Source: Ignavibacteriota bacterium
GTDB lineage: Bacteria; Bacteroidota; Ignavibacteria; UBA10030; UBA6906
Direction: 5' to 3'
Assembly (NCBI GenBank): GCA_003152875.1
Contig: PMBF01000028.1
Location: 1,151-45,026 of the forward strand
DNA length: 43,876 bases
Shown here: positions 7,121 to 14,634 of the stretch, in pieces
How the letters are laid out: each line of letters begins with the position of its first letter
How positions within the stretch are numbered: position 1 is the stretch's first letter
Made by a program: the position numbers and the translations under genes
Notes under the pieces: generated by a model
Database searches by the model: none
What the model saw: the letters and a program-made list of their open reading frames with translations, nothing else
Told to the model about the DNA's origin: nothing

Positions 7121-8026
7121 CTACATGACTTCGAATGAGAAGCCGGCCCCCCACATCGAGCGGCGTTCATTGTAGTACTGGCTGAAGATCTGGAGACCGG
7201 AGACGTAGTTCACGTACAACTTGATGCCGGCGCCGTTCCATTGACCGAACTTGATACCTCCTTCAAGAACATTCGTCCCCCCGTAGGCCGGGATACCAGT
7301 GAGAGTGAGGTTGAAGGCCGCGTACAGCTCATAGGCCTTCCCGAGCAGTCTGTGTTCTCCGCCCGGAGTGTGAATATCGAAGCCATGCAGGGAAGTCAGC
7401 CTCCTGAGGTTCTCAGGACGGACGAGCGTGGCGTAGCTGAATCCGGAGTAGAGGGTCAGCGGCATGCCCCAGACGGGCAGCGTAGCCGCCCCGAGAAGCT
7501 CTCCGAAATCACGCGTGAACGGGAGGGGGAGGCGGTTGTCCTTCCAGACTCCGGAGTAGGTATCGTAGTGGCCGTCGACCAGATGGGCGCTGAGGTGCAT
7601 GAGGCGGAGCCGCACAACATAGGTATGGCTCCCCTCATCGAGGCGGAAGAGCACATGCCCGCCGAAGAAGCCGTCGACCGCATCGACCTGGAGGCGGAGG
7701 CCTTCGGCGCTTGTCGTCAGCGCGTAGGTGAAGAACTCCGCTCCCATCCTGATGCGCGCCCGTCCAGAGTCGTCCAGCGTGTACTGCAGGAAGTCGAGCG
7801 TGCTGCCGATATCGAGCTTGAGGCGCGAACTCCCGATTTCTTTCCTCACCCCGACGCGCGGCTCCTGGGGGTTTGCCGCCAGAGGGGGGAAGAGGGGGCT
7901 CCCGGGGAGGAACTCGAGTGTGCGGGCGGCTGTTGTTTCTAACGGTTGACTCCATCCGACCTGAAGGCAGAAAAGGACGAGACAGACAAACAGCGTCGGG
8001 TGGCGCATCACCTGGGTGACTGTCAT
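7121..8026 (-). CDS. DUF1207-like outer-membrane protein
   Basis: 301 residues with an N-terminal signal peptide (hydrophobic TLFVCLVLFCLQVGWSQ). The mature protein is rich in alternating polar and aromatic strands and ends in FSFEVM, as an outer-membrane beta-barrel would. EFLPGSPLFPPLAANPQEPRVG near residue 40 matches my memory of the DUF1207 opening (LP..PLFPPL.ADPR.P). The start could be ATG 8026 or ATG 8008 (MRHPTLF); the latter gives a more usual signal-peptide length. A good candidate promoter lies at 8062-8090. Function unknown. It is divergent from another envelope protein at 8194. Confidence 0.7.
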   Translation of the reverse strand: MTVTQVMRHPTLFVCLVLFCLQVGWSQPLETTAARTLEFLPGSPLFPPLAANPQEPRVGVRKEIGSSRLKLDIGSTLDFLQYTLDDSGRARIRMGAEFFTYALTTSAEGLRLQVDAVDGFFGGHVLFRLDEGSHTYVVRLRLMHLSAHLVDGHYDTYSGVWKDNRLPLPFTRDFGELLGAATLPVWGMPLTLYSGFSYATLVRPENLRRLTSLHGFDIHTPGGEHRLLGKAYELYAAFNLTLTGIPAYGGTNVLEGGIKFGQWNGAGIKLYVNYVSGLQIFSQYYNERRSMWGAGFSFEVM

Positions 8027-9095: not shown

Positions 9096-10799
9096 TCAGT
9101 CCCCGGAGTGCTCGCTGAACTGGACCGACTTCCAGGCTCCGAAGAGGTCCCTGCAGAGGTTCCTCTGATACTTGCCCGTCGAGGTGACGGGGATGTCATC
9201 GCCGAACAGTACGACCTTGGGTGATTTGTCGAACGGGAGATGTCTCCTGCAGTGGGCGATCACCTGTTGCGCTCCCATCTCCACGCCGGGTTTCGTCTTC
9301 ACCATTGCGCCCACCTCCTCGCCGTACCAGTCGTTGTCGAACCCTACCGAGATGGCCGCTTCCACGCCGGGCATGTGCATGAGGACTTCGTCAATCTCGA
9401 AGGGCGAGATATTCACGCCTCCCCGGATGATCAGCTCCTTGAGCCTCCCCGTAATGAAGAAGAACTTCCTGCCCTGATCATCGAACCGGAAGAATCCCTC
9501 GTCGCCGCTCCGGAACCATCCATACCTGAATGTTTCGTCGTTGACCTCCGGGTTCTGGAAATAGCGCCTCATGACGTTGTGACCCCGGATCACGATCTCC
9601 CCTTTCTGCCCTTCATCGAGCTCGTTTCCTTCGGCGTCGTGGATCGCCATCTCGTTGATGGGGAGGGGGACGCCGATGGAGGGGAAGCCATGCTTGGAGA
9701 TCCAGCGACGGTGTTCCGCCGGTTCTAGTCCGATCGGGAGGAAGGAGGAATAGCACGTGGTCTCGGAGAGGCCGTACCCGTGCACGATCGGCATCTTGAA
9801 TGTCTGCTCGAACTTCGTGGCGAGTTCGCAGGTGAGGGGACCCGCGCCGCAGATCAGGTGGCGGAAGTTCACGAACTTGTACGCCTCCATGTCGAGCTTG
9901 GCATGGAGAAGGATCTGGAGAATGGTTGGAACCACGCTGGCGATGGCAACCCGTTCCGCGCTCATGCGCTCGAAGAAGCGATCGGGGTGAAAGCGCTGGT
10001 TGAGGACGACGGTGCTTCCCCCGTACAGCGGAGTCATCAGGGTCACCACGATCCCGTTCACATGATGCAGGGGAAGGACGCACATCATCGTCTCGCTGTC
10101 CGACACCTGGTGCCATTCTGCGATCGCCATGGCATCGACAAGGAGGTTGTACTGGTCCAGCACCACTCCCTTGGGGCTTCCGGTCGTGCCGGAGGTGTAC
10201 ACGACGAGCGCTTCATCGTCCAGCGACGGGGGGCGCGGCGCTTTCAGCCTGGCGGGCTGGCGGAGCAGCTCAGCCGCCAGGAATGGGAAGCCGGCCGTGA
10301 CCTTTCCGCCCACCTGAATGATCTGTCGGAGCGAAGGGATCGCCGGGCGCAGTGCCAGGATGCGGTCCATGTAGATATCGCGCACGAGAGCGAGCCGCGC
10401 CCCGGAGTCCCGAAGGACGAAGGTGATCCGCCTGTCGTCCTCCCCGGCGTTGACCGGCACCACGGCCGCGCCGATCATCCACGCAGCGAAGTACTGGACC
10501 ACAACGTCGCTGTGGTTGAACGACATGGTGGCGACGCGGTCGCCCGGCTGAATGCCGGCTGACAGGAGGACCATCGCGGTCCTGCATGCCTCCTCATGGA
10601 ATTCCCGGTAGGTATGTTCCTTCCGCTGGCCTTCGTCGCTGTAGAACACCATGAAAGGCTTGTCTTCGAACCGGTCGGCCTGCCGTGCAAGGAGGTCCGC
10701 GATGCTGGAATAGGGAACCATCGGCTCACCCGGCGGAATCCCCATGACTGTTCTCGAGCTCTCTATCCGCCCGAGGGTTTCGAGAGAAAGATCAGACAT
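9096..10799 (-). CDS. AMP-forming acyl-CoA synthetase / ligase
   Basis: 567-residue member of the ANL superfamily. It activates a carboxylic acid to the acyl-adenylate and then, most likely, to the CoA thioester. The P-loop-like motif YTSGTTGSPKGV, the A5 motif YGLSETT, the A7-A8 stretch RSGDEGFF...ITGRLKELIIRGG and the catalytic lysine in TSTGKYQRN are all present, so it should be active. I start at ATG 10799 (MSDLSLETLG); an upstream ATG at 10832 would add 11 residues without family character. It is the last gene of the tyrosine-degradation operon, 36 bases after a small ORF. The substrate is unknown; an aromatic or fatty acid linked to this pathway is only a guess. Confidence 0.88.
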   Translation of the reverse strand: MSDLSLETLGRIESSRTVMGIPPGEPMVPYSSIADLLARQADRFEDKPFMVFYSDEGQRKEHTYREFHEEACRTAMVLLSAGIQPGDRVATMSFNHSDVVVQYFAAWMIGAAVVPVNAGEDDRRITFVLRDSGARLALVRDIYMDRILALRPAIPSLRQIIQVGGKVTAGFPFLAAELLRQPARLKAPRPPSLDDEALVVYTSGTTGSPKGVVLDQYNLLVDAMAIAEWHQVSDSETMMCVLPLHHVNGIVVTLMTPLYGGSTVVLNQRFHPDRFFERMSAERVAIASVVPTILQILLHAKLDMEAYKFVNFRHLICGAGPLTCELATKFEQTFKMPIVHGYGLSETTCYSSFLPIGLEPAEHRRWISKHGFPSIGVPLPINEMAIHDAEGNELDEGQKGEIVIRGHNVMRRYFQNPEVNDETFRYGWFRSGDEGFFRFDDQGRKFFFITGRLKELIIRGGVNISPFEIDEVLMHMPGVEAAISVGFDNDWYGEEVGAMVKTKPGVEMGAQQVIAHCRRHLPFDKSPKVVLFGDDIPVTSTGKYQRNLCRDLFGAWKSVQFSEHSGD

Positions 10800-10835
10800 C
10801 ACGCAAGGACGTCGATGGTGGTACAAGGGCACTGT

Positions 10836-11087
10836 TCATGGATGGGTGATTGCCAGACGTTCGAGGATGAACCTGTCGGTGGTGCGGGAATAGACCGATC
10901 CGCTCATGCGCCCTATGGGCCGCAGGATGTCGGGGTCGATTGAGAAGTTGTCGAAGAGGGCGTCCGAGACATAGAGATGGGCGGACTTCCCGTAAGACCC
11001 CTTTCGTCCGTGCTCCTCCTCATACGTCCCCCCGGGCAGGCCTGCGTTCGCCTGCTTTGCCGTGAGTCCTTTCGTCAGAGGATACAT
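10836..11087 (-). pseudogene. 83-codon ORF: possible homogentisate dioxygenase / flavin reductase junction
   Basis: The ORF starts at ATG 11087 behind AGAAGGGG. Residues 1-39 (GLTAKQANAG, GTYEEEHGRKG, KSAHLY) resemble, from memory, the N-terminus of one homogentisate 1,2-dioxygenase subfamily (GLTARQAH.G.PEGTYEEEHGR.GFFG..SHLYH). Residues 40-83 (VSDALFDNF, IDPDILRPIGRMSGSVYSRTTDRF) resemble the extreme C-terminus of flavin-reductase-like FMN proteins (DP..L.P.GRLGG..Y.RT.D.F). Neither half has its catalytic domain. The simplest reading is an in-frame deletion, or an assembly collapse, that removed most of both genes and joined the ends near 10970. It sits exactly where hmgA would be expected, after the hydrolase gene. 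A genuine small protein remains possible. Confidence 0.45.
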
Positions 11088-11282
11088 GGTTCCCCTTCTC
11101 CGTCTGATGGTCAGCTTCCGCCTGGTTGCTGTCGTCAACGATCCCCGAAGGGGAACCGACGGTAGTGGCGATCCACACCGGCGTTCGAGATTCGGGACCC
11201 GCCGTTTGTCACCTCCCGCCCGCCTTCACCAACCTCGGCCGGTCTTGCCTGGGGGGTGGGGTCGATTCCAGGACCGTCCGAT

Positions 11283-12275
11283 TCAGGACGTCCGGGGCCT
11301 GATTACCCTGTTCCGCAGGACGCCGATCTTTTCGATCTCCAGCTCCATGACGTCGCCCGGCTGAACCCATCGGTCGAGTTCGCCCCCCGAGCCCACGATA
11401 CCTGAGCCGATGAGCTCGCCGGGGTAGATTGTCCCATCGCGCGACACGAATGCGATCATCTCCTCGAATTTCCAGTGCAGGCAAGAGGAGTTCCCTTCTG
11501 ACCAGGTCTCTCCGTTTACGCGGGCGGTCATCCGGAGGTTGTAGGGGTCGCCGATCTCGTCGGGCGTGACCATGGTGGGGCCGATAGCCGTGCACCAGTC
11601 CTTTCCCTTGGCCGGACCGAGGCGGACGCGCATTTCTTTGCGCTGCATATCGCGAGCGCTGAAGTCGTTCATGACCGTGAACCCGGCGATAAAGCGCCGG
11701 GCATCGGAGGCAGCGATGTTGCGTCCGGCCCGGCCGATCACCGCTGCGAGCTCCAGCTCATAGTCGAACTTCTCCGTGAAAGAGGGCCAGAGGACGTCCT
11801 CCTCAGGCCCGATGATGCTCTGGTGGTTCCCCCTGTCATAGACGGGGATTTCGAACCATTCCTGCGGCATCGGCTCACCGCGTTTTTCGAATCCTTTCCT
11901 GACATGGGCCTCGAATGCATAGAAGTCGCGGAGGGACGCCGGGCGCGGGAGGGGGGCCTTGAGCCTCACGGACTCTGGCGGATACACGAGCGTCTCTTCA
12001 TTCAGTCCGAGGGGTGGGGGACCGGGTCGCATCTGCCGCGAAAGTGTCTCGAGCGTGGCGCGCGCAAAACCCAGGGAGGTCTCTTCACCCTGGAGGAACT
12101 CCAGCATGGTGTCGGGGACAAGGACGTCGGCCAGAGCGTAGGGCCGGGCTTCTCCCTTGGCAGCCAGGTGCCATGCGCACGCGAAGTTCAGGTCGACGAT
12201 CCCACCCTCGACGGCGGCGCCGAGGCGGAGATGCCGTCCCAGGCTGGTCCGGACTTCAAATGTGCAGAGTCGCAT
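11283..12275 (-). CDS. fumarylacetoacetate hydrolase family protein
   Basis: 330 residues of the FAH family, which hydrolyses fumarylacetoacetate to fumarate and acetoacetate, the last step of tyrosine breakdown. The central domain carries the metal-ligand acidic residues (DYELELAAVIG) and the typical AGFTVMNDFSARDMQRKEM, GKDWCTAIGPTMVTPDE and YPGELIGSGIVGSGG motifs. The N-terminal YAFEAHVRKGFEKRG resembles fumarylacetoacetase-like hydrolases found beside hppD. It starts 14 bases after the hppD stop, so they are co-transcribed. Related family members act on other beta-diketones; the neighbourhood favours fumarylacetoacetate. Confidence 0.85.
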   Translation of the reverse strand: MRLCTFEVRTSLGRHLRLGAAVEGGIVDLNFACAWHLAAKGEARPYALADVLVPDTMLEFLQGEETSLGFARATLETLSRQMRPGPPPLGLNEETLVYPPESVRLKAPLPRPASLRDFYAFEAHVRKGFEKRGEPMPQEWFEIPVYDRGNHQSIIGPEEDVLWPSFTEKFDYELELAAVIGRAGRNIAASDARRFIAGFTVMNDFSARDMQRKEMRVRLGPAKGKDWCTAIGPTMVTPDEIGDPYNLRMTARVNGETWSEGNSSCLHWKFEEMIAFVSRDGTIYPGELIGSGIVGSGGELDRWVQPGDVMELEIEKIGVLRNRVIRPRTS

Positions 12276-12289
12276 GCGATATGTGCCTG

Positions 12290-13417
12290 CTACAGGTTGC
12301 CGCGCAGCGCCTGCTCGCGTTCGATGGCCTCGAAGAGCGCCTTGAAATTCCCCCTTCCGAAGCTCCTGCTCCCTTTTCGCTGGATGATTTCGAAGAAGAG
12401 CGTCGGGCGGTCCTCCACGGGCTTCGTGAAGATCTGGAGCATGTACCCCTCATCGTCTCGGTCGACGAGGATGCCGAGGTTTTCAAGCGTTTCCAGGGGT
12501 TCGTCGATGGCGCCGATGCGGCCGGTGAGCTCCCGGTAATAGGCCTGTGGGACGCGAAGGAATTCCACTCCCTGCGCCCGCAGGCGGTGGACCGTCTGGA
12601 CGATGTCGTTGGTTGCGCAGGCGATATGCTGGACTCCCGGACCCCGATAAAACTCAAGATACTCCTCGATCTGGGATTTTTTCCTCCCCTCCGCGGGTTC
12701 ATTGATCGGGAATTTGATCCGTCCGTTGCCGTTGGCCATGACCTTGGACATCAGGGCGCTGTATTCGGTGCTGATGTCGCGGTCGTCGAAATGCTGGAAA
12801 AGGCGGAACCCCATGACTCTTTCATAGAACGTTACCCAGGTGTTCATTTCTCCCCATCCGACGTTGCCCACGATGTGGTCGATGTGAAGCAGGCCAACCG
12901 GCTGGGCCACGCCGTCGGGTGTCGTGGAGGGGACATACCCGGGCATGAAGACGCCGCGATAGTCTTTCCGTTCGACAAAGGTGTGGATGGTCTGACCGTA
13001 GGCGGCGATGGCCGCCCGGCGGAGTTCCCCCTGCTCGTCGCTGAGAACGCTCGGTTCGATGACGCTGCGCCCTCCGCGGCGGGTCGTTTCGGCGAACGCG
13101 GATGCGGCATCGTCGACCCAGAGCGCGATATCGTGGACGCCGTCGCCGTGCATCCTCACATGTTCGGCAATGGGGCTGTCCGGGCCGAGCGCTGCGGTAA
13201 GCACAATGCGGATCTTCCCCTGCTGAAGCACATAGGAAACCCGTTCGCGGCTTCCCGTTTCAGGACCGCTGTATGCTGCCTGGGAGAATCCGAAAGCGGT
13301 TCTGTAATAATGCGCGGACTGTTTCGCGTTGCCAACATAGAACTCGACGTAGTCGGTTCCATTGATCGGGAGGAAATCAACGTCAGTCCTGTCGGAACGT
13401 GCTCTGGTCGCGGGCAT
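12290..13417 (-). CDS. hppD: 4-hydroxyphenylpyruvate dioxygenase
   Basis: 375-residue non-haem iron dioxygenase that converts 4-hydroxyphenylpyruvate to homogentisate. It has two vicinal-oxygen-chelate halves. The iron ligands are H181 (LLHIDHIVGN), H264 (GVQHIACATND) and E343 (PTLFFEIIQRKG). The signature C-terminus GRGNFKALFEAIEREQALRG is intact, so the enzyme looks functional. I chose ATG 13417 (MPATRARS) because GAGGGA lies about seven bases ahead; an upstream ATG at 13435 is less likely. It follows the aminotransferase gene by about 107 bases and is tightly followed by the FAH-family gene. Confidence 0.96.
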   Translation of the reverse strand: MPATRARSDRTDVDFLPINGTDYVEFYVGNAKQSAHYYRTAFGFSQAAYSGPETGSRERVSYVLQQGKIRIVLTAALGPDSPIAEHVRMHGDGVHDIALWVDDAASAFAETTRRGGRSVIEPSVLSDEQGELRRAAIAAYGQTIHTFVERKDYRGVFMPGYVPSTTPDGVAQPVGLLHIDHIVGNVGWGEMNTWVTFYERVMGFRLFQHFDDRDISTEYSALMSKVMANGNGRIKFPINEPAEGRKKSQIEEYLEFYRGPGVQHIACATNDIVQTVHRLRAQGVEFLRVPQAYYRELTGRIGAIDEPLETLENLGILVDRDDEGYMLQIFTKPVEDRPTLFFEIIQRKGSRSFGRGNFKALFEAIEREQALRGNL

Positions 13418-13524
13418 GGATCGATCCCTCATCACTGATTGCGGAAAACGATGAGCCAGAAGGCGGAGAAAGAGCGGATGCGGAACATGGGTATGGGGAT
13501 CTTCTTCGACGGGCCTCTGCAGGG

Positions 13525-14634
13525 CTATGCCAAAGGCCGCGCCTGTATTTCCTTAAGCCGATCGATCAGGATTTCATTTTGCCCGCGGGTACCGATGGTG
13601 ATGCGGACGCAATGAGGCAGCCCAAAGGCCCGCAAGGGCCTGATAATGACGCCTACGCGGAGCAATTGCTCATACAGCCGGTCGACGGCGTTCTCGGATT
13701 CAAGGGGGACGAAGACAAAGTTGGCTTCGGTGGGAATCACTGTGAAACCGATGTTGCGCAGCGCCGGAACAAGGAATTCCTTCCCGGCGTTGTTGATTTC
13801 AAGCGTTTCTCTAAGAAATTCGCCGTCATTCAGGGCCCCGATACCTGCGGCCTGGGCAAGCGTGGACGGTTCAAAGGGAAGCTTCACCTTCAACAGGTTG
13901 CCGATCAGAGCGTCGTGGGCGAACCCGTACCCGATCCGGATTCCCGCCAGGCCGTACGCCTTGGAGAAGGTCCGGAGTGTGATCACGTTGTCGTACCGGT
14001 AGTGCATGGAGTCGGGATACAGGGGGTTGTCCCTGGCGTATTCGAAATATGCTTCGTCAAGGATGATCAACACGTGTGCCGGAACGCGCGTCATGAACGC
14101 ATCGAATTCCGCGGTCGTGAATATCGTCCCGGTCGGATTGTTCGGGTTCGCCAGATAGATGATCTTGGTCCTCGGGGTGATTCGGGCTGCAATCGCCTCG
14201 AGATCGAACCGGAAGTCCCGGAGGGGCACGGTCACCATCGCCACCCCTCTCGATCTGGCCAACACATAGAATCCGACGAACGTTCCGGAGGAAGTGAGGA
14301 CTTCATCATCGTCGCACAGAAAGGCGCGGATGATGTTCGACATGATCCCTTCGGAGCCGCTCCCGCAGATCACATTGGTGATCTTGAGCTGGAATCGCAG
14401 GGCGAGGAGCTCGCGGAGGTCCTGGCCTCCATTGGGATAGAGGTTGAGCTCGCCGATGTGCCGCCGCAGCTCGCGGATGGCGAGCGGGGATGGCCCACGG
14501 GGGTTTTCGTTCGAAGCGAGCTTGATGATTGAGGAGAGCCCGGTTTCCCGCTGCAGTTCCGAGATGGGTTTGCCGGGTTTATACGGTTCGAGCGTTTCTA
14601 TGTAGGGGGGGACGAGCCGCACGGGTCGATGCAC
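13525..14634 (-). CDS. HisC-like class I/II aminotransferase (probably aromatic)
   Basis: 369 residues, a fold-type I PLP aminotransferase of the histidinol-phosphate aminotransferase family. KLASNENPRGPSP, YLANPNNPTGT, ILDEAYFEYA, the PLP lysine in TFSKAYGLAGIRIGY and the final R of CVRITIGTRGQN are all conserved. In HisC proper the substrate is histidinol phosphate, but many HisC homologues also take aromatic amino acids. As the first gene ahead of hppD, transamination of tyrosine to 4-hydroxyphenylpyruvate is the likelier job here; this is inference from context. The start is GTG 14634. No other histidine-biosynthesis gene is present. Confidence 0.88.
   Translation of the reverse strand: MHRPVRLVPPYIETLEPYKPGKPISELQRETGLSSIIKLASNENPRGPSPLAIRELRRHIGELNLYPNGGQDLRELLALRFQLKITNVICGSGSEGIMSNIIRAFLCDDDEVLTSSGTFVGFYVLARSRGVAMVTVPLRDFRFDLEAIAARITPRTKIIYLANPNNPTGTIFTTAEFDAFMTRVPAHVLIILDEAYFEYARDNPLYPDSMHYRYDNVITLRTFSKAYGLAGIRIGYGFAHDALIGNLLKVKLPFEPSTLAQAAGIGALNDGEFLRETLEINNAGKEFLVPALRNIGFTVIPTEANFVFVPLESENAVDRLYEQLLRVGVIIRPLRAFGLPHCVRITIGTRGQNEILIDRLKEIQARPLA

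Follow-up and report, generated by a model that had tools for sequence, protein, structure and literature searches.

The window, a stretch of 43,876 nucleotides from the genome of an uncultured member of the Ignavibacteria that is known here from its sequence, carries an 83-codon open reading frame (ORF) in which the front of a homogentisate 1,2-dioxygenase gene (hmgA) is joined in frame to the tail of a flavin reductase-like (FR) gene. We consider it very probable that a real deletion, in frame, left this ORF as its scar, and the pathway of tyrosine breakdown then probably stops at homogentisate. We observed the fusion, its two parent genes, their syntenic position in relatives, and the lack of any other HmgA or FR domain in the assembly. 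The event is of a kind known from other bacteria and has an ordinary mechanism, and it is described here in a new lineage. As a well-resolved example, it shows a pathway after the loss of one middle enzyme, with the neighboring genes still conserved.

The features of the locus, all on the minus strand, are as follows.

11087-10836, minus: fusion ORF of 83 codons (hmgA front plus FR tail, in frame), ATG start, TGA stop, 252 bases
10971..11087, minus: hmgA remnant, fusion codons 1 to 39, with H14N, V15A, and F31S relative to residues invariant in relatives
10970..10971, minus: probable site of the join left by the deletion, where fusion codon 39 meets codon 40, placed by codon-level comparison with relatives
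10836..10970, minus: FR remnant, last 44 codons and stop
9096..10832, minus: AMP-binding acyl-CoA synthetase, with which the cluster ends; start codon either GTG at 10832 or ATG at 10799
11283..12275, minus: FAH-family hydrolase, 330 amino acids, intact
12290..13435, minus: 4-hydroxyphenylpyruvate dioxygenase (HPPD), intact (TIGR01263, 451 bits; cut-off, 277)
13525..14634, minus: HisC-like aminotransferase, 369 amino acids, first gene of the cluster

An ORF composed of two gene ends

The original prediction, made from the sequence of the window, had described the ORF as the ends of two genes joined, preceded by a good ribosome-binding site. The latter was confirmed as AGAAGGGG, located 4 nt 5' of the ATG. 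A mechanically called TTG start at 11138 would extend the ORF to 100 amino acids; the ATG is preferred, since the hmgA genes of relatives begin at this position. The sequence of the fusion protein is MYPLTKGLTAKQANAGLPGGTYEEEHGRKGSYGKSAHLY / VSDALFDNFSIDPDILRPIGRMSGSVYSRTTDRFILERLAITHP. Scans of its 83 amino acids against Pfam and NCBIfam gave zero matches, and with Pfam nothing was retrieved even at an E value of 10 or when each half was submitted alone. This is because both catalytic domains are gone, as had been anticipated: the fusion lacks HgmA_N, HgmA_C, and the metal-binding residues of a functional HmgA, as well as the Flavin_Reduct split barrel of a functional flavin reductase. The identity of the ORF was resolved only by comparison with related genomes.

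When each half was searched separately in 60 related genomes, each found the family predicted for it. (i) Residues 1 to 39/41, previously read as the front of a homogentisate dioxygenase, match, in 17 genomes of this set, sequences that begin long open frames, with E values down to 5e-16; these are the N termini of HmgA family proteins, and residues 1 to 39 are approximately 68 to 82% identical to the 17 relatives at the syntenic position. (ii) Residues ~30 to 77, within what had been called a flavin-reductase-like tail of 44 residues, match the ends of open frames of ~200 to 250 amino acids, with E values down to 1e-13. Codons 40 to 77 align with the C terminus of the relatives' Flavin_Reduct proteins from approximately FR codon 163; they are 39 to 71% identical and collinear, and the FR genes lie downstream of hmgA. 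(iii) In relatives possessing both genes, the two matches adjoin on one strand, which bears out the reading of the ORF as two joined ends.

The parent proteins were measured from their own starts. Where no contig end cuts them, the HmgA family proteins of the relatives contain 366 to 369 amino acids, and the FR proteins contain ~200 to 212 in most relatives. The former match PF20510 (HgmA_N, 50.8 bits) and PF04209 (HgmA_C, 26.5 bits) above the cut-off, and their best solved structures are homogentisate 1,2-dioxygenases; their score of 79.9 bits against the NCBIfam hmgA equivalog TIGR01015 is below its cut-off of 510.75. By family assignment they are distant members of the HmgA family with a predicted activity, and a function as homogentisate dioxygenase is supported by the fact that the gene adjoins an equivalog-level HPPD. 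The FR protein carries Flavin_Reduct and is closest to nitrilotriacetate monooxygenase component B.

In the relatives within the Ignavibacteria, the cluster runs aminotransferase, HPPD, FAH, hmgA, FR, and acyl-CoA synthetase. Order and orientation are unchanged in the window, where the 252-base ORF stands in place of hmgA and FR. Synteny therefore agrees with the earlier statement that the ORF, between FAH and the synthetase, occupies the expected place of hmgA, and comparison of the locus showed that hmgA and FR adjoin at that position in the relatives. The first five genes are likewise ordered in Acidobacteriota and in one Zixibacteriota metagenome-assembled genome (MAG). The Ignavibacteria and Acidobacteriota clusters resemble the window in order, orientation, and intact HPPD, FAH, and aminotransferase genes, whereas hmgA and FR are whole there and reduced to 39 and 44 codons, respectively, in the window. 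As a separate observation, the cluster lacks FR more than once within the family: in five loci of genera g10, g5, and g11 (L040, L042, L045, L046, and L091), the synthetase follows hmgA within ~100 bp and there is no FR. In genera g10 and g5, the interval between HPPD and hmgA yielded no FAH either.

Extent of the loss and condition of the remnants

The DNA at the junction is hmgA-like through TAT (Tyr39), after which the relatives have CAY, and FR-like from GTC onward. Measured from hmgA codon 39, the corresponding FR codon (~163) lies at a distance of 1,463 to 1,532 bp in compact relatives and 1,917 to 2,050 bp in relatives with a longer hmgA-FR spacer, so the lost segment probably measured ~1.5 kb by this comparison. 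An in-frame deletion of about 2 kb had been proposed; the in-frame deletion is supported, but the size is revised to ~1.5 kb, and 1.9 to 2.05 kb is reached only with the longer-spacer relatives. Even the closest relatives share only ~78% identity in HPPD, a distance at which synonymous sites would be almost saturated. A single event would have removed the part of hmgA that follows codon 39, the spacer, and approximately the first 162 codons of FR, and the ends would have been joined by a presumably illegitimate (nonhomologous) recombination with at most a few shared bases. The 83-amino-acid product, if made, would be devoid of either catalytic domain.

Several lines of evidence bear on whether this deletion is real. 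(i) Direct repeats long enough for collapse or homologous recombination were searched for and not found. In 10 intact relatives, there was no common string of more than 10 bp within 100 bp on either side of the breakpoints, and the junction register leaves only a few matching bases between the breakpoint regions. Within the window, no repeat of at least 12 bp overlaps the 80 bases that surround the junction. (ii) The window contains no N. (iii) In domain searches of the genome, HgmA_N had no match elsewhere and Flavin_Reduct (PF01613) had none; a full hmgA query found only the 40-residue scar. The assembly is a draft of 120 contigs with 97% completeness, and the missing part might hold a second hmgA. 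(iv) The hmgA remnant has drifted. Residues H14, V15, and F31, which are changed in it, are invariant in 17/17 relatives of the order and in 40/40 further loci; these loci were found by patterns that cover parts of the N terminus and leave positions 14, 15, and 31 outside, and a few of them are genomes already in the first set (e.g., L052 is G003). The remnant has 3 of 24 invariant positions broken, compared with at most 1 of 22 in the 17 relatives, and its mean identity (0.762) is the lowest of the set. In the same genome, the numbers of changed invariants are ordinary for HPPD (3/184), FAH (3/119), and the aminotransferase (1/161) and slightly raised for the synthetase (8/192, third of 14). 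Fisher tests on the three residues in 39 gave P values of 0.02 against the genome's own HPPD and 0.01 against HPPD, FAH, and aminotransferase combined. The hmgA remnant shows signs of relaxed constraint at these three residues in 39. The FR remnant has 0 of 7 invariants broken; the FR family is less conserved, and this comparison hence has little power. The fusion ORF is still free of internal stops. Taken together, the lack of a repeat, of an N, and of any other HmgA or FR domain and the drift of the hmgA remnant favor a real deletion.

Alternative explanations

The in-frame join may keep the synthetase translated. An extension of the deletion hypothesis, rather than a different origin, is that the scar has been kept in frame because its translation feeds the downstream synthetase, either by coupling or by averting polarity, whereas the protein product would be junk. 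In the synthetase frame, the GTG begins 3 nt and the ATG 36 nt after the fusion stop, and the ATG is not preceded by a clear Shine-Dalgarno sequence. Since one join in three would be in frame by chance anyway, and the synthetase shows the slightly raised change noted above, we offer this only as a tentative suggestion, with the odds against it.

Somewhat less probable, and in our view unlikely, is a strain mixture in which the deletion is real but confined to some of the cells, whose version the assembler followed. The draft appears to come from an environmental sample, and loss of hmgA segregates among colonies of laboratory variants of Pseudomonas aeruginosa (PMC6467409). Against this, the changed invariant residues suggest that time has elapsed since the loss, and no other contig carries the segment in intact form.

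The assembly itself could be at fault, in that the organism would have intact hmgA and FR genes and the assembler would have skipped ~1.5 kb through a collapse or chimera. The 120 contigs of the draft, the NN joins near the locus in relatives G017, G005, G013, and G020, and the synthetase of G017, which is partly missing beside an NN, are compatible with such an error. The window has no such join, however, the repeats near the breakpoints in relatives (at most 10 bp) are too short to mislead a k-mer assembler, no separate contig carries the missing genes, and an intact gene collapsed by the assembler would still show the three otherwise invariant residues that are lost here. We therefore judge an assembly error very improbable.

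It is highly improbable that the fusion represents a small protein with a new function, kept by selection: the frame is open with a good ribosome-binding site and the FR half keeps its invariants, but conserved residues are being lost from the hmgA half, both halves are mere pieces of larger domains, and no full-length homologue was found in the 60 related genomes, the family, or 41 loci from GTDB species genomes. The same held for the 98 genomes of the order. Full-length homologues, or halves matching neither family, had been named as the findings that would contradict the two-gene reading; the former were not found, and both halves do match their families through relatives.

Predicted metabolic outcome and other apparent losses at the locus

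The very probable deletion leaves a pyomelanin-type genotype, namely, an intact HPPD (451 bits against TIGR01263; 3/184 invariants changed) and no other HmgA in the 97% complete assembly. Since HPPD is conserved and HmgA is gone, homogentisate is likely a dead end, judging from knowledge of the pathway. HPPD looks functional, and tyrosine breakdown should consequently reach homogentisate and then stop. Homogentisate would leak out and probably be oxidized to pyomelanin, although a silent operon or a substitute enzyme would prevent this; by analogy with known mutants, the accumulated homogentisate may give rise to this pigment. Release of homogentisate or pyomelanin is a testable trait predicted for this uncultured group. 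The case also carries a warning, as annotation from HPPD and FAH alone would wrongly call tyrosine degradation complete here. Phenylalanine hydroxylase and maiA, which encodes a TIGR01262-type maleylacetoacetate isomerase, are absent from the genome. The maiA gene is absent from 21/21 genomes of the family, including those with an intact hmgA, and its absence therefore says nothing on the loss of hmgA; the later steps of the pathway, isomerization included, are thus only partly explained even in relatives with an intact hmgA.

Loss of hmgA in Vibrio cholerae, P. aeruginosa, and Bacillus anthracis leads to pyomelanin or a homogentisate-derived pigment (PMC3114702, PMC6467409, PMC4457819). The window resembles the mutants of V. 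cholerae and P. aeruginosa in the loss of homogentisate 1,2-dioxygenase by deletion (PMC3114702, PMC6467409) and B. anthracis in the loss of hmgA (PMC4457819). The V. cholerae deletions comprise 10 to 15 bp, and in its operon the HPPD-side gene VC1344 is the most conserved and hmgA (VC1345) the most variable (PMC3114702). In P. aeruginosa, the deletions span 56 to 536 kb; some have no flanking repeats, and one ends inside hmgA (PMC6467409). In contrast to these three bacteria, in which the pigment has been seen, the window has also lost the FR gene and retains an in-frame fusion ORF.

HPPD is present in 18 of the 98 genomes of the order, and among these only the window genome and G013 lack hmgA; approximately half of the genomes of the family are without any HPPD. 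In G013, a genome of the same family, locus L090 (G013:C45, positions 1282-1292) contains the HPPD tail and an intact FAH, followed directly by synthetase codon ~520. Missing are hmgA, FR, and most of the synthetase, ~3.37 kb in comparison with its congeners G005 and G020, and HPPD is cut by the contig end. As in the window, hmgA and FR are lost, and what is kept includes FAH and, at a minimum, the end of HPPD; unlike in the window, the endpoints lie just after the FAH stop and at approximately synthetase codon 520, and there is no hmgA/FR fusion. This apparently is an independent loss of hmgA at the same locus, although it may have an assembly cause. In the simplest view, a dispensable pathway has decayed repeatedly, and the window represents one stage of that decay. 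A different proposal, that in this family of the Ignavibacteria loss of hmgA with retention of HPPD is recurrent and selected because homogentisate or pyomelanin is the useful product, e.g., as an electron shuttle or protective pigment, appears to us quite doubtful.

Irregularities of other kinds were noted in the same cluster elsewhere. Locus L065 (JACPNO010000035.1, 5001-5893), from a groundwater Solibacter MAG, has no N and encodes an HmgA without residues ~150 to 215, owing to a frameshifting deletion of ~205 bp. In L037 (G017:C112, 7150-7310), an internal deletion of ~0.5 kb in FR has imperfect short homology at its ends, with hmgA intact; an NN at 7308-7309 stands in place of part of the synthetase start, and there are assembly problems nearby. 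In L039 (G005:C34, 1444-1449), HPPD is split into two frames exactly at an NN and the split is therefore probably an assembly join, not a mutation.
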